Part shown: positions 128 through 14,515 of the stretch, one piece after another
How positions within the stretch are numbered: position 1 is the stretch's first letter
Layout: the number at the start of each line of letters is the position of its first letter
Virus record (IMG/VR): IMGVR_UViG_3300035698_026380
Span: 1 to 20,766 of that record
Source: a virus
Strand: one strand, 5' to 3'
DNA: 20,766 nt
The notes under the pieces: generated by a model
What the model saw: the letters and a program-made list of their open reading frames with translations, nothing else
What the model was told of the DNA's origin: nothing
The model's database searches: none
Made by a program: the position numbers and the translations under genes

Positions 128-685
128 AATATCCTTACATAATTCTTTTCCATCTTTTCTTAATATAATCTCGAATCCCGTATCTCTAATTTCCTTTGAA
201 TAAATATAACCTGTGTTATCTGCAAGGCCAATATAGGTTAATGGCAGTGTTGTTGAGCACACTTTATCAAATTTATCAGCAACTCTCTCTTGATATCCCT
301 CCTCAACCTCAATATAAGTATCAAATTGTTTTAGATTTACAATTTCTTTTGAATATACATCAATTACATCAAAATCATCAAACAAAGATCCATCTGAATA
401 AAGAACTGCCTTTCCTGATGCTTTACAATCAATATAACATTTATCTGAATTATCTACTAAAGAATACTCTGCAATCTTATCCGTTTCTATCCATAAGAAT
501 GTTTTTGAGATTTGAATTGCTCCATATTTAGCATTAAAATCTGCTTTTAGATAATTATGAACTTCTGCTTTATCCTCAACAGAGATCATTTTATCTGCAA
601 AAGGATTTAACTCTAAAGCTGAAACGGATGGAATTAAGACTAACATCAAAAGCATTATTCCTAAAAAGATCTTTTTAACCACCAT
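1..685 (-). CDS. Secreted Gly-rich/Ig-like adhesin, N-terminal part (gene continues from the window end)
   Basis: This is the first 228 codons of a protein that continues at 20640 and ends at 17707, about 1205 aa in total. I translated it directly: it opens with a signal peptide (Lys-Lys, hydrophobic stretch, Ser-Val-Ser-Ala at residues 20-23, mature start near Leu24). Residues 24-225 have mixed strand and helix character with several Cys and no family I recognise. The ATG at 685 follows a GGGAGGG Shine-Dalgarno site lying within the last codons of the preceding gene, and the genes overlap by 11 bp. It is inferred to be the exported start of a virion surface or receptor-binding protein. The C-terminal part is described in the 17707-20766 entry. 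Confidence 0.85.
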   Translation of the reverse strand, partial: MVVKKIFLGIMLLMLVLIPSVSALELNPFADKMISVEDKAEVHNYLKADFNAKYGAIQISKTFLWIETDKIAEYSLVDNSDKCYIDCKASGKAVLYSDGSLFDDFDVIDVYSKEIVNLKQFDTYIEVEEGYQERVADKFDKVCSTTLPLTYIGLADNTGYIYSKEIRDTGFEIILRKDGKELCKDIVSTYKNITKTRIVNQKYDGEVLKAGSYTWTINAEKDPTQNLD

Positions 686-1235
686 AATGCCCTCCCCCAT
701 AAATTTCATCATCTTTTGATCCCATTCTAACAAACATAATTATTCCTCCAACTATTCCAATTATTGCAATCCACATAGGCAGATTCAACATTATGAAATT
801 TGATCCCGTAAATCCTGCAAATGTAGAGGCCACTGTTGTATTTTCAATCACACTCTCATAAGCATTACTCAATCCAACTGAAACTATTGTTGCAATAATA
901 GTAATGAAAATATATGGCACAAAAAAGACGGGTTTAGTTGTTACTAAATACGATCCTATGAAAATGCTTATAATCATTCCGACTATTAAGAAAAGGGAGA
1001 TCCAATATAAAGCATTATATGTTGCAGGAACTTGATCAAATGTATCATTCAAAACCTGTGTTGTGTTTTGGCCTGATGGTAAATCCATTCCATCCATTGT
1101 TTCATGGAGTTGATCACTTGCTTTTCCACCCATATAAATAAAAATTCCACTTATGAAAATAATTATTATTCCCACCACCATAAAAATAAAGAGATCTGTT
1201 AATCCACCTTTTTTATTTCTTAATAAAGATTTCAT
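675..1235 (-). CDS. Four-TM membrane protein with class III-like signal (186 aa)
   Basis: The short N-terminus carries Arg-Asn-Lys-Lys-Gly at residues 6-10, then Gly-Leu-Thr and a hydrophobic helix (about 14-35). That pattern resembles archaeal class III (pilin/archaellin) signals cleaved after Lys-Gly. Three more hydrophobic segments follow, in the second half, and the tail is Gly-rich with Tyr. I chose ATG 1235 over ATG 1241 because GGAGGT at 1243-1248 is 7 nt from the former but only 1 nt from the latter; 1235 also gives an ATGA overlap with the upstream stop. It lies in the virion-type operon just before the adhesin. A virion membrane component is inferred; the exact function is unknown. 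Confidence 0.75.
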   Translation of the reverse strand: MKSLLRNKKGGLTDLFIFMVVGIIIIFISGIFIYMGGKASDQLHETMDGMDLPSGQNTTQVLNDTFDQVPATYNALYWISLFLIVGMIISIFIGSYLVTTKPVFFVPYIFITIIATIVSVGLSNAYESVIENTTVASTFAGFTGSNFIMLNLPMWIAIIGIVGGIIMFVRMGSKDDEIYGGGHYGG

Positions 1236-1465
1236 TTCCATAACCTCCGATCAAATTTAATTTTTAGATCTAATTTTATACTTTTTTTATTGTTAATCAG
1301 GTTATTTTCTATATCTACAAAGGAGGGAGATTTAACAATATCTGTGGTTAATTCCCTCAAACTTTTCTTTTCTCCCCTTGACATCATGATCTTTTTTTGG
1401 ATTTCATCTAATCTTTTCTTAAATTCAGGAGAAACTTGCATTGGGAATCTATTTGATTTTGCCAT
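1232..1465 (-). CDS. RHH-like small protein (77 aa)
   Basis: A small basic protein. Residues 6-20 (Arg-Phe-Pro-Met-Gln-Val-Ser-Pro-Glu-Phe) look like the beta strand and first turn of a ribbon-helix-helix DNA-binding domain, followed by helices through about residue 55; the C-terminus is Lys-rich. The start forms a TAATG overlap with the stop of the 271-aa gene, so translation is probably coupled. As a candidate regulator inside the virion operon it could give feedback control of the promoters here. The RHH assignment rests on pattern alone. A long reading frame on the opposite strand is a shadow. Confidence 0.65.
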   Translation of the reverse strand: MAKSNRFPMQVSPEFKKRLDEIQKKIMMSRGEKKSLRELTTDIVKSPSFVDIENNLINNKKSIKLDLKIKFDRRLWK

Positions 1466-6000: not shown

Positions 6001-6715
6001 CAACTGATTCATTGAATGATCTATAATTAACCTTATCTTTTGAGATCCCAATTGATTTTATAACAGCATCCAATTTGCCTGATTGGAGATCTGATTTAAA
6101 TTTATATTGGGAACTATCTCTTGCATCCCATTTTCTCCTATCAAAACTTGCCTTATCATCTGCATAATCAACAAGATCTCCTGCTGAATATCCCTGATTA
6201 ATTTTTCCTGATTGGCCTTGCAAATATCTTAGTTGTGCCTCTGCCTCCTTAACATCATTCTCCTTTTTATCCTGCCTCTTTCTGATGTATAATTTTTGCC
6301 TTGCCCTCTGATCATTATCCCTTGAATAAGGATATGTTCTTTCATACTCATAAAATTTATTTAATTTTTCTTGTGCCTCTGTAACCTTATTTGTAAAAGT
6401 AGTAATATTTGTATTAAAGGATTTTCTTTCTACCTCTATTCTTATATTCTTTTTTGATGTGATCTCAGTGGGAGATAAAAAGAATTGCTGAACATTAGGA
6501 GATAATTGTTGGTATTTACTTGAATATCCCTCAAAGGTAAATGGATCATTTGGTTTATCAATAAACACAGATGATCTTAATCTATTGGCCTCTGCCCTTG
6601 CACTTTCAAATTCATTCCTTTCTCTCTGTTCTTTCTGTGCTTGTTTAATTCTTTCTGTTCTTGTGATCCTGCTTTGATCTACCCCTCTTTGTTGGCTAAA
6701 TGATCCCTGTGCCAT
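3056..6715 (-). CDS. Very large virion-type protein with hydrophobic centre (1219 aa)
   Basis: First and largest gene of the virion-type operon, with a leaderless start at 6715. Residues 1-160 are Gln/Lys/Arg/Glu-rich and probably coiled coil. Residues 300-540 are charged and helical. Residues 545-640 are a Gly/Ala-rich hydrophobic stretch able to form several membrane helices. Residues 650-1000 are strand-rich, a Ser/Thr/Gln-rich linker follows (about 1000-1110), and the last 80 residues are very basic. The size, coiled coil, hydrophobic centre and basic tail recall tape-measure or injection/minor virion proteins and the carriers of polymorphic toxins, but I recognise no catalytic motif. A DNA-contacting or membrane-crossing virion protein is inferred. 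CpG dinucleotides are extremely rare here. Confidence 0.8.
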   Translation of the reverse strand: MAQGSFSQQRGVDQSRITRTERIKQAQKEQRERNEFESARAEANRLRSSVFIDKPNDPFTFEGYSSKYQQLSPNVQQFFLSPTEITSKKNIRIEVERKSFNTNITTFTNKVTEAQEKLNKFYEYERTYPYSRDNDQRARQKLYIRKRQDKKENDVKEAEAQLRYLQGQSGKINQGYSAGDLVDYADDKASFDRRKWDARDSSQYKFKSDLQSGKLDAVIKSIGISKDKVNYRSFNESVAKYNANISQVNQLKKWGGKVGFLNLPDYAQQRINPKAIEFQKLYPDEKITFSPTGEVNSIESKAFGGSFSPTEYNLKVKAQQQRIEEVGQEQFEKEWREKQYIKWKKENRKEDEIVTPSGLYVTKENMDAFLSTDPMETNLSNLEDQESILSKAVKFPVIKQGVGGYNWVKERVHFDIAGTGSSPKLNISFGKIDKPTIVETLAEETRGELRKAQTNIDEWVIGKEKIEEFKTEKETKYQGIYQTAFEDKYMKNIIVDQAPFENAEARFKESDEAKKIQEQYQKEYELGYNQLQKDVDFWSLKGIKGGVAQTGIGLASVGTTLVDNPVDLLATSGALYGATSLIGALPSSIKLGLTGTFFVTGTAKAFDPTATYSERGAGLTTAIITGASLGYSGIKYLKSPVVKTANIKPPKMNIRASQTLGKDIKIIGADGKVTNKVFYGQQKLSQTGIAGRRTIVTTKWRALSNKYLGTNLKNIYEGIPANQPAQFVRLTGIRGNVLVKTAPSGYENARNLLKKYGYSDYQATSTLRYYAPKMQDVWLEKGLINVGSKGAKAQFTFTQRQPVIEYTDKGLNIKTRSARVIQDKYNVNRKLVTINDQSFVMENKFRVGNFLDKRGNIVKLKDFEFSQTKNLVKVSDSKKGFDYLGKQNGADLFKPVKYKDLVSFSKDNWAIKVTPKRTTTIIEALNNQRRLDITRSTLSDWNVDLSKAGTQKPLFTFTKGGGKTDYSAWATEGSKDMNKVINKLNKVVGSSSRTGGTTISTPSPSQVTQLDLKQQLKAIITTPKTTQVAQMGAITDLSASNLDALMLGQGVAVASQFNLRSSTKQDIELKNMLKNMDITKTSQLQQSQLRSVQGTKTAQIQALALTPALSGVNIWQGGTYNPPTPLKSPKFKPPVIFAVAKKIQKKRKSSRDKLSPELLGMFPDFTSRAVGLKPQEFGSVKDALKEMRKIKTGFGIRRGARLKKKGGFSEKDLLKGITQ

Positions 6716-6745
6716 GTATAACAGAGGTATAACTACTATATAAAT
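6712..6745 (-). promoter_or_regulatory. Promoter/operator copy 1 (34-bp repeat) for the virion-type operon
   Basis: On the minus strand a TATA box (ATTTATATAG) is centred about 25 nt upstream of the A of the ATG, implying a leaderless mRNA. Between TATA and ATG, GTTATAC occurs twice with a 4-nt spacer, an 11-bp period (plus-strand positions 6716-6722 and 6727-6733). All 34 bp from 6712 to 6745 recur at 15657-15690. Such helically phased repeats covering the start site suggest a repressor or activator site shared by the two operons. Confidence 0.75.
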
Positions 6746-7335: not shown

Positions 7336-8340
7336 TTGACAGTAGTAAGATTTTGGGGAATGGATCAGTTTGCAATGATGTGTGCAAAAATGTTGTTAAA
7401 CAAATTTGATTGTTTTATTGTTATAGAGGGAAATAGAGGTTTAGGAAAATCAACTTTGGCTTACCATCTATTAACTAGAGTTGGCAGGATCATGAAACGA
7501 ATCGCAAAAGAAACAGGAGGGAAAGATAGTCTATACAAAGATTATTATTCCTTTAAACCATACCCACAATCAAAAGGAAAACTAAAAGGAAACACAAAAA
7601 ATATTCTCTATCAAAGAGATGAAGTTATTAATTTCTTTGATCGATGGAACGCCTCTGCCCTCGCTGATGAGGGGATAAATGTTTCTTTCAATCGTGATTT
7701 TTGGAATGAGGATCAGAAAAATCTTATTAAATTAATCAATATGAATAGGGATCATTGCAATTTATTTATTATGTGCATCCCACAATTTCAGGTTTTAGAT
7801 AATCAGATCAAGAACTTATGTAAGATCAGAGTTACCATTGCCCGTCGTGGAATGGCAGTTATTCAAACTCCAAACAGAACTATTTATAATAAAGATAAAT
7901 GGGATACTGCAAATAATGAGAGGATAGAAAGAGAATGGTTAAAGAAAGGATCAGGCCTCCCAAAATATTCTAAACTAAATACATTCAGGGGGATGATGAG
8001 ATTTCCTGCACTAACAAAAAGAGATGAATCGATTTACACCACAATAAAAGTTAATGAAAGGAACACGATCAAAAAGGATCTTGGAGTTGGTGGAGAGGAA
8101 AAGAAAGAGAAAGAACTTTCGGAGATCGCAGTGGAAAGGTTAAAGGAGGGAAAGATTAGAAATGCAAACATATTGGATGGAATGGCCATTGCAAATGGAT
8201 CAACTCCTGATTCTTTTAAGAACATAATTAGAGGGAAGTTAAAGAAAGAGGGAATTGATCACAGGTTGCCACAATATTATTGGGAAAAGCAAGGGAAAGG
8301 CAAGGGAAAAGAGGGAGAAAGTGGAGAAATGTTTGGATAA
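7336..8340 (+). CDS. P-loop ATPase, possibly genome-packaging or Zot-like (334 aa)
   Basis: A P-loop NTPase. Walker A is Gly-Asn-Arg-Gly-Leu-Gly-Lys-Ser-Thr (32-40). The likely Walker B is Ala-Leu-Ala-Asp-Glu (108-112), preceded by Arg-Trp. A hydrophobic strand ending Cys-Ile-Pro-Gln (143-150) fits a sensor position after a helix with Asn-Arg-Asp-His. This order resembles single-domain packaging or morphogenesis ATPases of the FtsK/HerA/Zot sort and phage P-loop proteins. The C-terminal part (250-334) is charged and may hold a helix-turn-helix before a Lys/Gly/Glu-rich tail. The start is TTG 7336, 5 nt after a GGAGG site; the in-frame ATG at 7360 lies too far from it. Packaging is favoured because no terminase is seen, but DNA replication cannot be excluded. 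Confidence 0.75.
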   Translation: MTVVRFWGMDQFAMMCAKMLLNKFDCFIVIEGNRGLGKSTLAYHLLTRVGRIMKRIAKETGGKDSLYKDYYSFKPYPQSKGKLKGNTKNILYQRDEVINFFDRWNASALADEGINVSFNRDFWNEDQKNLIKLINMNRDHCNLFIMCIPQFQVLDNQIKNLCKIRVTIARRGMAVIQTPNRTIYNKDKWDTANNERIEREWLKKGSGLPKYSKLNTFRGMMRFPALTKRDESIYTTIKVNERNTIKKDLGVGGEEKKEKELSEIAVERLKEGKIRNANILDGMAIANGSTPDSFKNIIRGKLKKEGIDHRLPQYYWEKQGKGKGKEGESGEMFG

Positions 8341-8545: not shown

Positions 8546-9373
8546 ATGGAGATTTCAATTTTGCAGGAGTATGATCAGTTTAGTTCATTCCTAATTAGGA
8601 AAGGCCTATCATTAGAAACGCAGAAACTTTATTTGATCTATGTGGAAAAGATAATCTATATCTTAAAAGAAACACAGATGAAACTTAGTCAGGATGTGAT
8701 TGATATATTTCTTGATGCCTACCCCCATGCTGTAAGCAGGGCTTTCCTAAAAAACTATTTAGAATATAAAGAGAGGAAAGATCTAACCATCGTTAAACGA
8801 ACAGGGAGGCCTCCTAAGAAAGAAACGATCACTCTATCATCAGAGGAGTTAAGATTGATGAGAGATCGCTTGTATGCCCACGCAGATAAATATGGATTGA
8901 TCTTTGATCTATCTGTGGGATGTGCATTGAGGAGGCAAGAGGCAATCAATATCAAATGCAAGGATATTAAGATCGAGGAGGATGATACAATGATGATCCT
9001 GATCAAAGGGAAAGGAAACAAGGAAAGAAAAGTTGTAGTGCCTAAACAAATTGCATCCTTAGTGATCCATTATAGTTTTAGTAATAACCTAATTCCATCA
9101 GATTACTTGTTTAAATCAACCACAATGGAGGATAAACCGATGGATAAAACAATGTGGAACAAATCTTTTTCAAACGCATCAATGGATGTGTTGGGAAAGA
9201 AATACCATCCCCATCAGTTAAGGCACACAAGGGCAACAGATTGGTTTGAAAAGGGAATTGATATTGTAAGAATCCAACAGAGATTAGGCCATACTAATAT
9301 TGCAACTACAAGATTATATCTAAACCCTGATAATAGGAGAGAATTAAAGAAATGGAGTAAAGAGGAACAATAA
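8546..9373 (+). CDS. Tyrosine recombinase/integrase (275 aa)
   Basis: A full-length XerA/phage-type tyrosine integrase. Residues 1-75 form the SAM-like N-terminal core-binding domain. The catalytic domain carries the complete set: Arg129 (Ala-Leu-Arg-Arg-Gln-Glu-Ala), Lys156 in Gly-Lys-Gly-Asn-Lys-Glu-Arg, His223-x-x-Arg226, His249 (Leu-Gly-His-Thr) and Tyr258 nucleophile. It should catalyse site-specific integration or excision, or resolution of multimers of the circular element. An att-like inverted repeat lies upstream. CpG is clearly more frequent here than in the virion-type operon. The recombinase assignment is secure; whether it integrates or resolves dimers is not. Confidence 0.95.
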   Translation: MEISILQEYDQFSSFLIRKGLSLETQKLYLIYVEKIIYILKETQMKLSQDVIDIFLDAYPHAVSRAFLKNYLEYKERKDLTIVKRTGRPPKKETITLSSEELRLMRDRLYAHADKYGLIFDLSVGCALRRQEAINIKCKDIKIEEDDTMMILIKGKGNKERKVVVPKQIASLVIHYSFSNNLIPSDYLFKSTTMEDKPMDKTMWNKSFSNASMDVLGKKYHPHQLRHTRATDWFEKGIDIVRIQQRLGHTNIATTRLYLNPDNRRELKKWSKEEQ

Positions 9374-11072: not shown

Positions 11073-11807
11073 TCACACAGGCACTAAACCTGATGCTCCT
11101 CCTGTCCAATTACCCGATGTTGTAACATAATTCTCTCCAAATACCCTTAATAAGATCTTGGAGGTTTCCAAATTAATTGTTGCCACTCCTGAAAATTTAT
11201 CCAATAACTTTGAAAATTGGAAAAACATAACCACCATGCAAACGGAGATCACTAAAAACACAATAATCAACATTACTGTATTTCCCCATTTTTCCCAAAA
11301 GGTTTTATCCATCAATCTTTGCTCTAATAATCTCTCTGTTGCCAATCTCTGCAATCTCATATCCTCTTGAACAAACTTGATCCCCATTTCCTTTGATTTT
11401 TTATTCAACTCATCCATTTGGAAATTAATCCACTCCCCATCTTCCCTTATATAATACCAAAATTCTTTTGGTGCTGTTTGGATCTTACCAACAGGCAACC
11501 ATTTTATTGCCTTAATTTTTAACATTCCCCCTGCAACTTTCCATAATTTATCTCCTGCCATTCCAAAAGGAACTTCTTTGGCAGAATAAACTCCAACTCT
11601 TGTTGGAACATTCCCAATTAATCTAAAAACATGGATCTTGATCCAAAATTGTTTCTTAACAACTTTCCAATAAATTAAAATTCCCCCCAACGCAAAAATT
11701 ACAACTGCAATAAAGAAAATTAAAAGGATCGTTGCAAAAGATCCAAGTCCTATTCCCCCAACATCAGCAAAGGGATTAACAGATGCTAAACTTACGGGAT
11801 CGGCCAT
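11073..11807 (-). CDS. Two-TM membrane protein (244 aa)
   Basis: An N-terminal TM helix (about 22-48) ends in Tyr-Trp-Lys-Val-Val-Lys-Lys. A soluble domain (50-180) contains Trp-rich strands and a charged helix. A second TM helix (about 183-207) precedes a short outer tail. No signal cleavage site is evident. The TGATG overlap with the preceding zinc ribbon gene suggests coupled translation. The protein is not recognised; a membrane platform or envelope protein is possible. A nearby reading frame on the other strand is a shadow. Confidence 0.75.
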   Translation of the reverse strand: MADPVSLASVNPFADVGGIGLGSFATILLIFFIAVVIFALGGILIYWKVVKKQFWIKIHVFRLIGNVPTRVGVYSAKEVPFGMAGDKLWKVAGGMLKIKAIKWLPVGKIQTAPKEFWYYIREDGEWINFQMDELNKKSKEMGIKFVQEDMRLQRLATERLLEQRLMDKTFWEKWGNTVMLIIVFLVISVCMVVMFFQFSKLLDKFSGVATINLETSKILLRVFGENYVTTSGNWTGGASGLVPV

Positions 11808-11944
11808 CAGGCCACAACCTCTTTATTCTCAAAACCACAACTACGGCAAATCCACACATGATCCTTGATCCTTAAATATCCAAACTTAGAATCACATCTT
11901 TGACATCTAATTCTTTCCTCTTTTTTTTCATGCTCCTCTTTCAT
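11807..11944 (-). CDS. Zinc-ribbon mini-protein (45 aa)
   Basis: A charged N-terminus (many Glu/Lys) precedes Cys14-x-x-Cys17 and Cys33-x-x-Cys36, a standard zinc-ribbon arrangement with a 15-residue knuckle spacing. It is the first gene of its operon, with a leaderless start 25 nt after a TATA box, and it overlaps the next gene as TGATG. Zinc ribbons of this size bind DNA, RNA or proteins; a transcription-related role is plausible. The promoter placement and Cys pairs make the gene likely to be real. Confidence 0.75.
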   Translation of the reverse strand: MKEEHEKKEERIRCQRCDSKFGYLRIKDHVWICRSCGFENKEVVA

Positions 11945-11953
11945 TTTATTATT

Positions 11954-11976
11954 ACACACACTCTATTTATATACTT
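11954..11976 (-). promoter_or_regulatory. Promoter with GTGTGTG box before the zinc-ribbon operon
   Basis: On the minus strand GTATATAAATAG (TATA centred near 11969) is followed by AGAGTGTGTGT and ATG 11944, 25 nt from the TATA centre. The TATA and box closely match the promoter at 14516-14536. It lies at the edge of the end of the 59-aa gene of the operon above. Confidence 0.7.
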
Positions 11977-11983
11977 TATTGTT

Positions 11984-12163
11984 TTATTCGGGAATTGCAG
12001 GGTTGTAAGGTTTGTTATGGATTGAAAAGTAACTAAATAGTTTGTTGTCTAAATCCCTAATAAGTCCTTTCTTTTCCTTAATTTTAGGACTCATTGTTAG
12101 ATAATTGATTCTCCTAACCAAACCACTAATTTCCCCCCAATCTTTTGTTATTTGTTTCATCAT
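11984..12163 (-). CDS. Small basic protein (59 aa)
   Basis: I translated this from two adjacent ATG codons at 12163. It is helical and Lys/Arg/Ile-rich (Leu-Val-Arg-Arg-Ile-Asn near 15-20), with an aromatic, Asn/Pro-containing C-terminus. It begins immediately after the 30-aa gene stop, fitting the end of the same operon. No motif is recognised; it is supported mainly by tight packing and clean codons. Confidence 0.5.
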   Translation of the reverse strand: MMKQITKDWGEISGLVRRINYLTMSPKIKEKKGLIRDLDNKLFSYFSIHNKPYNPAIPE

Positions 12164-12394: not shown

Positions 12395-12595
12395 CTAAAA
12401 GATCCACCTCACAACACTGATCATTGCAAAAATTATAGATCCTAACACAATAATTTTCTCATACCATTTAGAGAAAATCCAATCCCATGTGAAGATCCTT
12501 TTGATAATATCCCTTATTAATTCTCCATAAGAAACATTCATCACTTCTTTCATGCTTGACATCCCTAATGGATTTGTTGCTGTTGGATTAGGCAT
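12395..12595 (-). CDS. C-terminally anchored small membrane protein (66 aa)
   Basis: Residues 1-15 are Pro/Asn/Thr-rich, the middle is an amphipathic helix (Ile-Arg-Asp-Ile-Ile-Lys-Arg-Ile) with Trp residues, and a TM helix ends the protein. I chose ATG 12595 rather than ATG 12631 because it forms a TAATG overlap with the peptidase gene stop. As the neighbour directly downstream of the prepilin-peptidase-like gene it could be a partner or substrate of that enzyme, but no class III signal is seen. Function unknown. Confidence 0.6.
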   Translation of the reverse strand: MPNPTATNPLGMSSMKEVMNVSYGELIRDIIKRIFTWDWIFSKWYEKIIVLGSIIFAMISVVRWIF

Positions 12596-13014
12596 TATAC
12601 AAAAATCCCCCCGATTAATCCCCCAATCCATAATGCCAAAAGGAAAGGAATAAATGGAACTTCCTTAAACTTTGCAAACTTATTTACTATGAAAATATAA
12701 AATACTTGGCCAACTGCAAAAGATCCTACTAATGCTAACATTGAAAATATATTGGGAATGAAAAATCCTAACATGATCATTACTTTAATATCTGCTATTC
12801 CAAAATCAATGCCCTCTGCCTCTGAAAATTCATAGAGTAATAAACCAAACAACCCAAAAATTAAAGCCCATCTAAAATTTGCCCACCTTACAAAAGTTAA
12901 TAAAATTATTGTTGCTGTTAATAAAACAGAGGGAATTGCCCTTGTTTTTAGATCTAAAATAGAGAATATAATTATTAATACTGTAAAAATTAATAATACC
13001 ACTGAAATAATCAT
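12595..13014 (-). CDS. A24 prepilin/preflagellin peptidase-like membrane protease (139 aa)
   Basis: A membrane aspartic protease of the type IV prepilin peptidase (A24, PibD/FlaK-like) family. The first catalytic Asp is in Asp21-Leu-Lys-Thr-Arg-x-Ile-Pro, at the end of TM1. The second is in Gly72-Ile-Ala-Asp75-Ile-Lys (the GxxD-x-K site). The late Val-Pro-Phe-Ile-Pro-Phe-Leu motif (119-125) is also typical. Five to six TM helices fill the rest, and the length is short, as in preflagellin peptidases without the bacterial methylase part. These enzymes cleave class III signals after Lys/Arg-Gly; matching proteins are encoded at 15736-16320, 16393-16695 and 675-1235. The ATGA overlap with the nuclease gene suggests coupled translation. 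Confidence 0.85.
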   Translation of the reverse strand: MIISVVLLIFTVLIIIFSILDLKTRAIPSVLLTATIILLTFVRWANFRWALIFGLFGLLLYEFSEAEGIDFGIADIKVMIMLGFFIPNIFSMLALVGSFAVGQVFYIFIVNKFAKFKEVPFIPFLLALWIGGLIGGIFV

Positions 13015-13544
13015 TTTTCATCAAACCATTTCTTTAGAATTTGTTGATTAACTAGATCATTTATTGGCCTTAACATACTATGGAGAATATATTTTGTATC
13101 CCCAATCCCGAAATCTTTAACATGTGCTTTGTGAATATCATCCCCTGTTGCATAACCAAGTATTTCCACCTGATCATCTGTGATTTTTGTTGCAACATAG
13201 TAATCATTTAAAATTCTCCTAAATTGTGCAACGGGAATCATTAACCTCTTATGAAAAGATTTTGATGCTGTTTTAACATCCATTATCTTTTTTCCAACAG
13301 AAAAATCCCCATCCCCTGCCATTCTATCCCCATCTCTCCCCCAAATAATTTTATCTTTAACATTTTTTCTTTTGAGAAACTCATTAAATGCCCATTCTCC
13401 TAAAAAACCCGTATAAAACCGATCATAAATTGTTCCCCCATTAACCCCTCTTGGATCATCAGGGTTAATTATTCCTTTCGTTATGCACCTTTTTGCAACA
13501 AGATCTGCCTCTTTCCTTGCGTCAGAGGTTATTCTTATGATCAT
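13011..13544 (-). CDS. PD-(D/E)XK-family nuclease (177 aa)
   Basis: The motif order fits a restriction-like nuclease fold: Glu50 in Gly-Glu-Trp-Ala-Phe-Asn, Asp80 in Gly-Asp-Gly-Asp-Phe, and Asp89-Val-Lys91 at the end of a strand, followed by a helix and strands. The protein is small and soluble, with no specificity domain visible. Candidate roles are host DNA degradation, resolution of replication or recombination intermediates, or genome processing before packaging. Both ends overlap neighbours as ATGA, placing it tightly between an RHH-like gene and the prepilin-peptidase-like gene. Confidence 0.8.
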   Translation of the reverse strand: MIIRITSDARKEADLVAKRCITKGIINPDDPRGVNGGTIYDRFYTGFLGEWAFNEFLKRKNVKDKIIWGRDGDRMAGDGDFSVGKKIMDVKTASKSFHKRLMIPVAQFRRILNDYYVATKITDDQVEILGYATGDDIHKAHVKDFGIGDTKYILHSMLRPINDLVNQQILKKWFDEK

Positions 13545-14063: not shown

Positions 14064-14505
14064 CTTTTATTTCCGTTTCCTTTTTAATTATTCCACTTAC
14101 ATCCATTTCTTTTCCCAACATATCTTTTATATTGCCAAAAACACTATTTATTTCCTCTTGTATTTTTGCTTGTGTTGGTTTTGGATCTTCTTTCTCCTTA
14201 GATCCCTCCTGCAATAACTCTAACTGATCTCTCAAGGCCTCACACTCTTTGTTTTTGGCATCTAAATTACCTCTTACCTTATGTAACTTTAATAATAAAT
14301 TAGTTTGTGGATAATCATGGATTAATCCCTGATCTCCCTCCTTATCTGTTATTAAAAATTTAATACCAAATTCCGTTGCATTTTTTAATCCAATATTTTC
14401 TTGTTTTGCTAATTCCCATAAATCTGCATCTATATTTACAGAAGTTAATTTAGTTGGAATTTTTCTCCAATCATCAGGTTTATTGAATGTTCCATCTTTT
14501 TCCAT
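14053..14505 (-). CDS. RHH-like regulator with coiled-coil C-terminus (150 aa)
   Basis: Residues 18-52 fit a ribbon-helix-helix fold (Lys-Leu-Thr-Ser-Val-Asn-Ile strand, then two helices). Residues 70-110 are a coiled-coil-like helix, followed by a charged, Pro-containing linker and a final helix. First gene of the middle operon, with a leaderless ATG 25 nt after a TATA box. As the first product expressed it is a good candidate for controlling its own promoter and the related GTGTGTG-box promoters. That target is inferred. Confidence 0.7.
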   Translation of the reverse strand: MEKDGTFNKPDDWRKIPTKLTSVNIDADLWELAKQENIGLKNATEFGIKFLITDKEGDQGLIHDYPQTNLLLKLHKVRGNLDAKNKECEALRDQLELLQEGSKEKEDPKPTQAKIQEEINSVFGNIKDMLGKEMDVSGIIKKETEIKDEK

Positions 14506-14515
14506 GATTTATTAA

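Follow-up and report, generated by a model that had tools for sequence, protein, structure and literature searches.

The locus at 12595–13014 raises the question of which proteins a prepilin peptidase would cut when it is encoded in a small viral genome. The DNA analyzed here (20,766 nt, all of it; hereafter, the window) is the IMG/VR virus record IMGVR_UViG_3300035698_026380, and because an exact 127-nt direct repeat is found at its two termini, it represents a complete circular genome of 20,639 bp. The best explanation, which we regard as fairly probable, is that the product of the locus is a compact A24 aspartic prepilin peptidase, dedicated to the virus, that matures capsid or envelope proteins. 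The features of the peptidase region and the terminal repeat are as follows:

1–127, no strand: terminal direct repeat, identical to 20640–20766
12395–12631, minus strand: small protein with a C-terminal membrane helix, directly downstream of the peptidase
12595–13014, minus strand: compact A24 prepilin peptidase, 139 aa, six predicted helices (PF01478, hhalign, AlphaFold model)
12640–12657, minus strand: PFIPFL motif (PFIP invariant in five viral peptidases; host counterpart IPF(V/I)PSFL)
12790–12792, minus strand: codon of predicted catalytic Asp75 in a Gly-x-Ala-Asp motif (invariant in five viral peptidases; aligns with host GGGD)
12952–12954, minus strand: codon of predicted catalytic Asp21 (invariant in five viral peptidases; aligns with the host A24 Asp)
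13011–13544, minus strand: conserved protein whose gene overlaps the start of the peptidase gene; nuclease-like motif GDF...DVKT

The open reading frame reported in the initial annotation is present, but its strand had to be corrected to minus, with the ATG start at 13014. Asp21 (in LDLKTRAIP), Asp75 (in GIADIK) and PFIPFL (residues 120–125) all lie where they had been placed, and the proposed membership in the A24 family was confirmed by two profile methods. Pfam PF01478 (Peptidase_A24) matched residues 8–105 in hmmscan (E-value = 1.8e-5) with 25.6 bits, just under the curated cut-off of 26.5 bits, which was exceeded in the genome search (27.8 bits). When a profile of the viral peptidases was compared with that of ten host A24 enzymes by hhalign, both Asp residues were aligned at an E-value of 2.2e-9, against 0.15 for an unrelated membrane family used as a control. 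The annotation had proposed a structure-based search (HHpred or Foldseek); profile comparison gave these matches, whereas the fold search did not recover FlaK. Six helices are seen in the AlphaFold model (mean pLDDT 75.6), which found only generic membrane matches (Foldseek, VIA), but the absence of FlaK says little because the alignment behind the model contains only five sequences. Algal antenna proteins were matched in a PDB profile search (E-value = 0.002), but over a stretch that includes the second Asp and neither the first Asp nor PFIP; this match was rejected as a chance similarity between membrane proteins. It is thus nearly certain that the window enzyme is an A24 prepilin peptidase. 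As for its neighbors, a homologue of the 12395–12631 product is also located downstream of the peptidase in a related genome, G002 (BLASTP E-value = 2e-19), and similar ORFs exist in G001 and G004. The 13011–13544 product is 46% identical to the neighbor of the peptidase in G001 and has no Pfam match.

Among viral contigs, scans with single proteins brought no relatives, whereas scans with small alignments brought three further circular IMG/VR records: G001 (21.5 kb), G002 (31.3 kb) and G003 (25.8 kb). Each of these has an exact terminal repeat (127, 127 and 82 nt, respectively), so all three are most likely complete circles. In a genome scan, the same element family was recognized in several contigs of the metagenome-assembled genome (MAG) Candidatus Woesearchaeota archaeon M55A3 (G004), and a search with the ATPase profile added more distant members, namely G183:C37, which is circular and complete with a 114-nt terminal repeat, and three G330 contigs. 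These three (C15, C24 and C45) are different members of the wider family in one Woesearchaeota-group MAG. The hosts of these small circular viruses are probably Woesearchaeota, an assignment made from MAG bins, which can include misbinned virus contigs. Phage reference collections gave no match for the peptidase, ATPase, capsid-like, minor or spike proteins of the window, and plasmid reference collections gave none for the peptidase.

The compact peptidase exists in all four complete close genomes (the window, G001, G002 and G003) and also on contig C47 of G004, beside a homologue of window 11073–11807. Four of the five viral peptidases match PF01478 at E ≤ 0.01, those of G001, G003 and G004:C47 among them; the G002 homologue (140 aa) was missed by Pfam and was matched by the viral profile with an E-value of 6e-55, this profile including the G002 protein itself. 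The four other sequences are 33–41% identical to that of the window, and D21, P28, G72, D75 and E-x-PFIP are invariant across the five. The host A24 enzymes of the phylum are about 285 aa long; the viral form lacks their insert of about 130 aa (the EGDWIAK...GPKDLG region) and keeps the C-terminal motif. The viral peptidases are monophyletic with respect to the host enzymes (support 100/100), on long branches, and the compact form was found in only one of 371 sampled genomes of the phylum, namely G004, where it lies on the viral contig. Short A24-like matches (L042 and L044) in other Woesearchaeota-group genomes have no Asp motifs and were dropped. The dN/dS values of the viral peptidase (0.12–0.48, with dS near saturation for most pairs) indicate that the gene is under purifying selection.

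Candidates for the substrates are encoded on the same circle. The initial annotation had described three membrane proteins with Lys-Gly directly before the first transmembrane helix (TM1), and all three were found, on the minus strand:

675–1241, minus strand: four-helix membrane protein, proposed minor substrate (K/R-G in 8/8 homologues)
1206–1211, minus strand: Lys-Gly codons, proposed cleavage site KKG/GLTD of the minor protein
15736–16320, minus strand: long capsid-like paralogue with an insert of about 95 residues between the helices, proposed substrate
16291–16296, minus strand: Lys-Gly codons, proposed cleavage site DKG/VAGLT of the long paralogue
16393–16695, minus strand: short capsid-like two-helix protein, proposed substrate (helical hairpin model; homologues in all relatives)
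16672–16677, minus strand: Lys-Gly codons, proposed cleavage site DKG/VAGLT of the short protein

The long and short paralogues are 71–73% identical in their aligned parts. Archaeal class III cleavage sites have Gly, Ala or Ser at position -1 and a charged residue at -2 (PMC4371748), and this rule, with a hydrophobic helix following, fits all three proteins; the other surface proteins of the window have, judging from their sequences, Sec-like signal peptides instead. Lys, Arg or Asn plus Gly, followed by 16 residues free of K, R, E, H and P, was found in only three of the 28 window genes scanned, which are the three proposed substrates. When the first residues were shuffled, at least three such genes appeared in 64 of 2000 trials (p about 0.03), so the enrichment within the window alone is weak and the convincing part is the conservation in the relatives. 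In the peptidase-bearing elements, Gly lies directly before TM1 in all 17 substrate homologues (12/12 capsid-like and 5/5 minor), and Lys or Arg occupies -2 in 15 of the 17; the other two, both from G004, have Asn. Positions further upstream are variable, with Asp frequent at -3 in the capsid-like set. The minor protein has a conserved Asp at +4, which may be reminiscent of the acidic +5 residue of pilins. The peptidase gene and the genes of the proposed substrates are not adjacent. The survey of related contigs that had been suggested earlier showed the peptidase and signal-bearing proteins linked in four of the four complete close genomes, whereas G183:C37 has the signals without the peptidase. 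On these sequence patterns, the three signal-bearing proteins are likely to be substrates of A24 cleavage.

The capsid-like pair was modeled as two-helix hairpins, and most of the capsid-like proteins have an N-x-T sequon between the helices. The two-helix hairpin is the typical topology of spindle-virus capsids (PMC10866085, PMC12934983). From this modeled topology, together with the pairing and the gene order, we infer that the paired proteins are capsid-like virion proteins, and a role of the proposed substrates in the virion is plausible. They have no sequence or fold match to known capsids, and searches with the models returned only generic helical hairpins. One capsid match, in G131, was a host pilin-like protein rather than a virus protein. 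In G002, a third two-helix capsid-like protein was found that has no K-G signal (L011 5437–5712). The short and long genes seem to exchange sequence (window 15736–16695; L006 15478–16466), and in G002 an 84-nt stretch of the second helix is identical between the two genes, as opposed to about 74% identity between genomes.

A type IV pilus or archaellum system requires a T2SSE ATPase and a T2SSF platform. As the initial annotation had stated, no pilus assembly ATPase or platform is encoded: PF00437 (T2SSE) and PF00482 (T2SSF) are absent from all four circles, whereas both were detected in the controls and in two host MAGs. With signal-bearing capsid-like proteins present and this machinery lacking, the most likely targets of the enzyme are proteins of the virus particle.

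The following mechanism is proposed, in which cleavage, virion location and the assignment of enzyme to substrate are inferred. The two hairpin proteins and the four-helix envelope protein would insert into the host membrane such that the short basic N-terminus faces the cytoplasm and the loop lies on the outer side. Cleavage by the viral peptidase would then occur on the cytoplasmic side, directly after the conserved Gly and ahead of the first helix; the cut position and the membrane side are those known for PibD and FlaK. The N-terminus exposed by this cut, VAGLT... or (G/A)xTD..., would be hydrophobic, and the helices, once trimmed, could pack into the shell of the virion in the way that type IV pilins pack when they have been cut in this manner. 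The signal is probably recognized by the host A24 enzyme as well; with a viral copy, the supply for the abundant capsid subunits would be large and quick.

The distant relatives bear directly on whether the viral enzyme is needed. Both capsid-like proteins of G183:C37 bear RRG or KKG, and its minor protein bears KKG, yet no element-borne A24 gene is found on this complete circle; the enzyme-substrate linkage is thus not obligatory, and the viral copy is not universally required. Capsid genes with neither a linked nor a host peptidase had been named as evidence against the proposal, but the MAG that holds G183:C37 encodes a host A24 enzyme. The host enzyme may suffice there, with the viral copy as a supplement elsewhere. 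On the G330 contigs, KKG is retained in those minor proteins that were found, and in the capsid-like proteins K-S is present, or else K-G closely followed by charged residues; their signal status being ambiguous, these capsid homologues were left out of the signal counts. No viral A24 is found on these contigs, and a host A24 is present. The pattern across the distant relatives is suggestive, in a small sample of related members. It also agrees with the reading that maturation of the viral proteins is the work of the host A24 enzyme while the viral peptidase serves another purpose, such as the processing or disturbance of host pilins or archaellins, leading to an altered cell surface or a block of superinfection. 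The hosts do have pilus ATPases, platforms and pilin-like KKG proteins, but the peptidase is present in every complete close relative, and since all of the elements that bear it carry signal-bearing substrate-like proteins, an in-house substrate is simpler; we consider another purpose rather unlikely.

The signals could instead mean that the two-helix proteins form, rather than a capsid, a filament or a conjugation-type pilus of a plasmid that is matured by the peptidase. Class III signals are typical of pilins, and archaeal conjugation pili, too, consist of small helical hairpins, one of which (8dfu, Z 5.5) appeared among the generic helical matches. The lack of a T2SSE ATPase and a T2SSF platform in the four circles, the absence of a VirB4/VirD4-like match among the window proteins scanned and the cataloguing of the window as a virus record make a plasmid pilus distinctly improbable. 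Still less credible, and in our view very improbable, is that the Gly preceding TM1 owes its conservation to helix packing or to membrane insertion, with no cleavage taking place and the peptidase being a passenger gene. The weak enrichment within the window and the replacement of K/R-G by NG in two proteins would fit such a role, but K/R-G is kept in two protein families whose N-termini otherwise vary, and a passenger gene is at odds with the purifying selection on the peptidase.

Compared with known systems, maturation of virion proteins by the viral enzyme would combine several familiar parts. Like the archaeal PibD and FlaK (MEROPS A24B; FlaK structure 3s0x), the viral peptidase has two catalytic Asp residues, the second within G-x-hydrophobic-D, as described for the A24 active site (PMC4371748); it is also predicted, with moderate confidence, to have six helices, and it shares an IPF/PFIP-like C-terminal motif with the host enzymes. 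It differs from them in its length of 139–140 aa, without the insert of the Woesearchaeota enzymes, and in being encoded by a virus without pilus genes. The capsid-like proteins are small, very hydrophobic and two-helix, like the hairpin capsids of spindle viruses (SSV VP1/VP3, SSV19 and NYMAG-47; PMC5748691, PMC10866085), and form a paralogous pair here, although they have no detectable sequence or fold match to those capsids. SSV1 VP1 is trimmed N-terminally by a protease whose identity is not known, the SSV1 genome containing no evident gene for one (PMC5748691). However, VP1 is cut at Glu after a variable extension (PMC5748691), as opposed to the K-G site proposed here, and its trimming is thus not the same reaction. 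An A24 enzyme on an archaeal mobile element is also known from thaumarchaeal integrative-conjugative elements, but these have pilins, FlaI/PilT ATPases, TadC and VirB4/VirD4 as well, pointing to a pilus or secretion system (PMC6563490), which is not the case here. In the literature searched, the coverage of which is incomplete, we came across no prepilin peptidase encoded by a virus in the absence of a pilus system, and no paper joining such an enzyme to virion maturation. That a Woesearchaeota virus lineage took over a prepilin peptidase and made it a maturase dedicated to capsids, thereby connecting the assembly of virions with the maturation of pilins, is to us an evenly balanced proposition. 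If true, it would give a new role to a family known from pili, archaella and secretion. A virus with its own A24 enzyme and conserved signals makes the trimming of hairpin capsid proteins in archaeal viruses testable; in addition, the viral A24 gene clearly marks viruses of the Woesearchaeota, a little-known group.

Other genes of the window include the following:

7336–8340, plus strand: P-loop ATPase (GNRGLGKST), marker of the wider element family, with homologues in all relatives
8546–9373, plus strand: tyrosine integrase (PF00589, E-value = 3.2e-26)
17707–20639, minus strand: bulk of a spike-like protein (ORFs 2–733 and 17707–20766 share the terminal repeat)

The ATPase gave only weak Zot and DnaA-like matches. 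The spike-like gene starts near 733, crosses the contig ends and encodes about 1,200 residues, including a glycine-rich domain (PF21722, E-value = 5.9e-13) that, in close relatives, seems to have been exchanged for other domains, whereas the C-terminal part remains similar. A small ORF among the structural genes (17109–17306) resembles part of an HNH-type homing endonuclease that occupies the same place in G002, and is probably a remnant or a short gene; HNH-like ORFs also lie among the structural genes of G003. A perfect 34-nt repeat (6712–6745 and 15657–15690) overlaps two gene starts and is likely a shared promoter and start region, and a 53-nt repeat with 79% identity (11934–11986 and 14495–14547), near two further gene starts, is likely a shared promoter.
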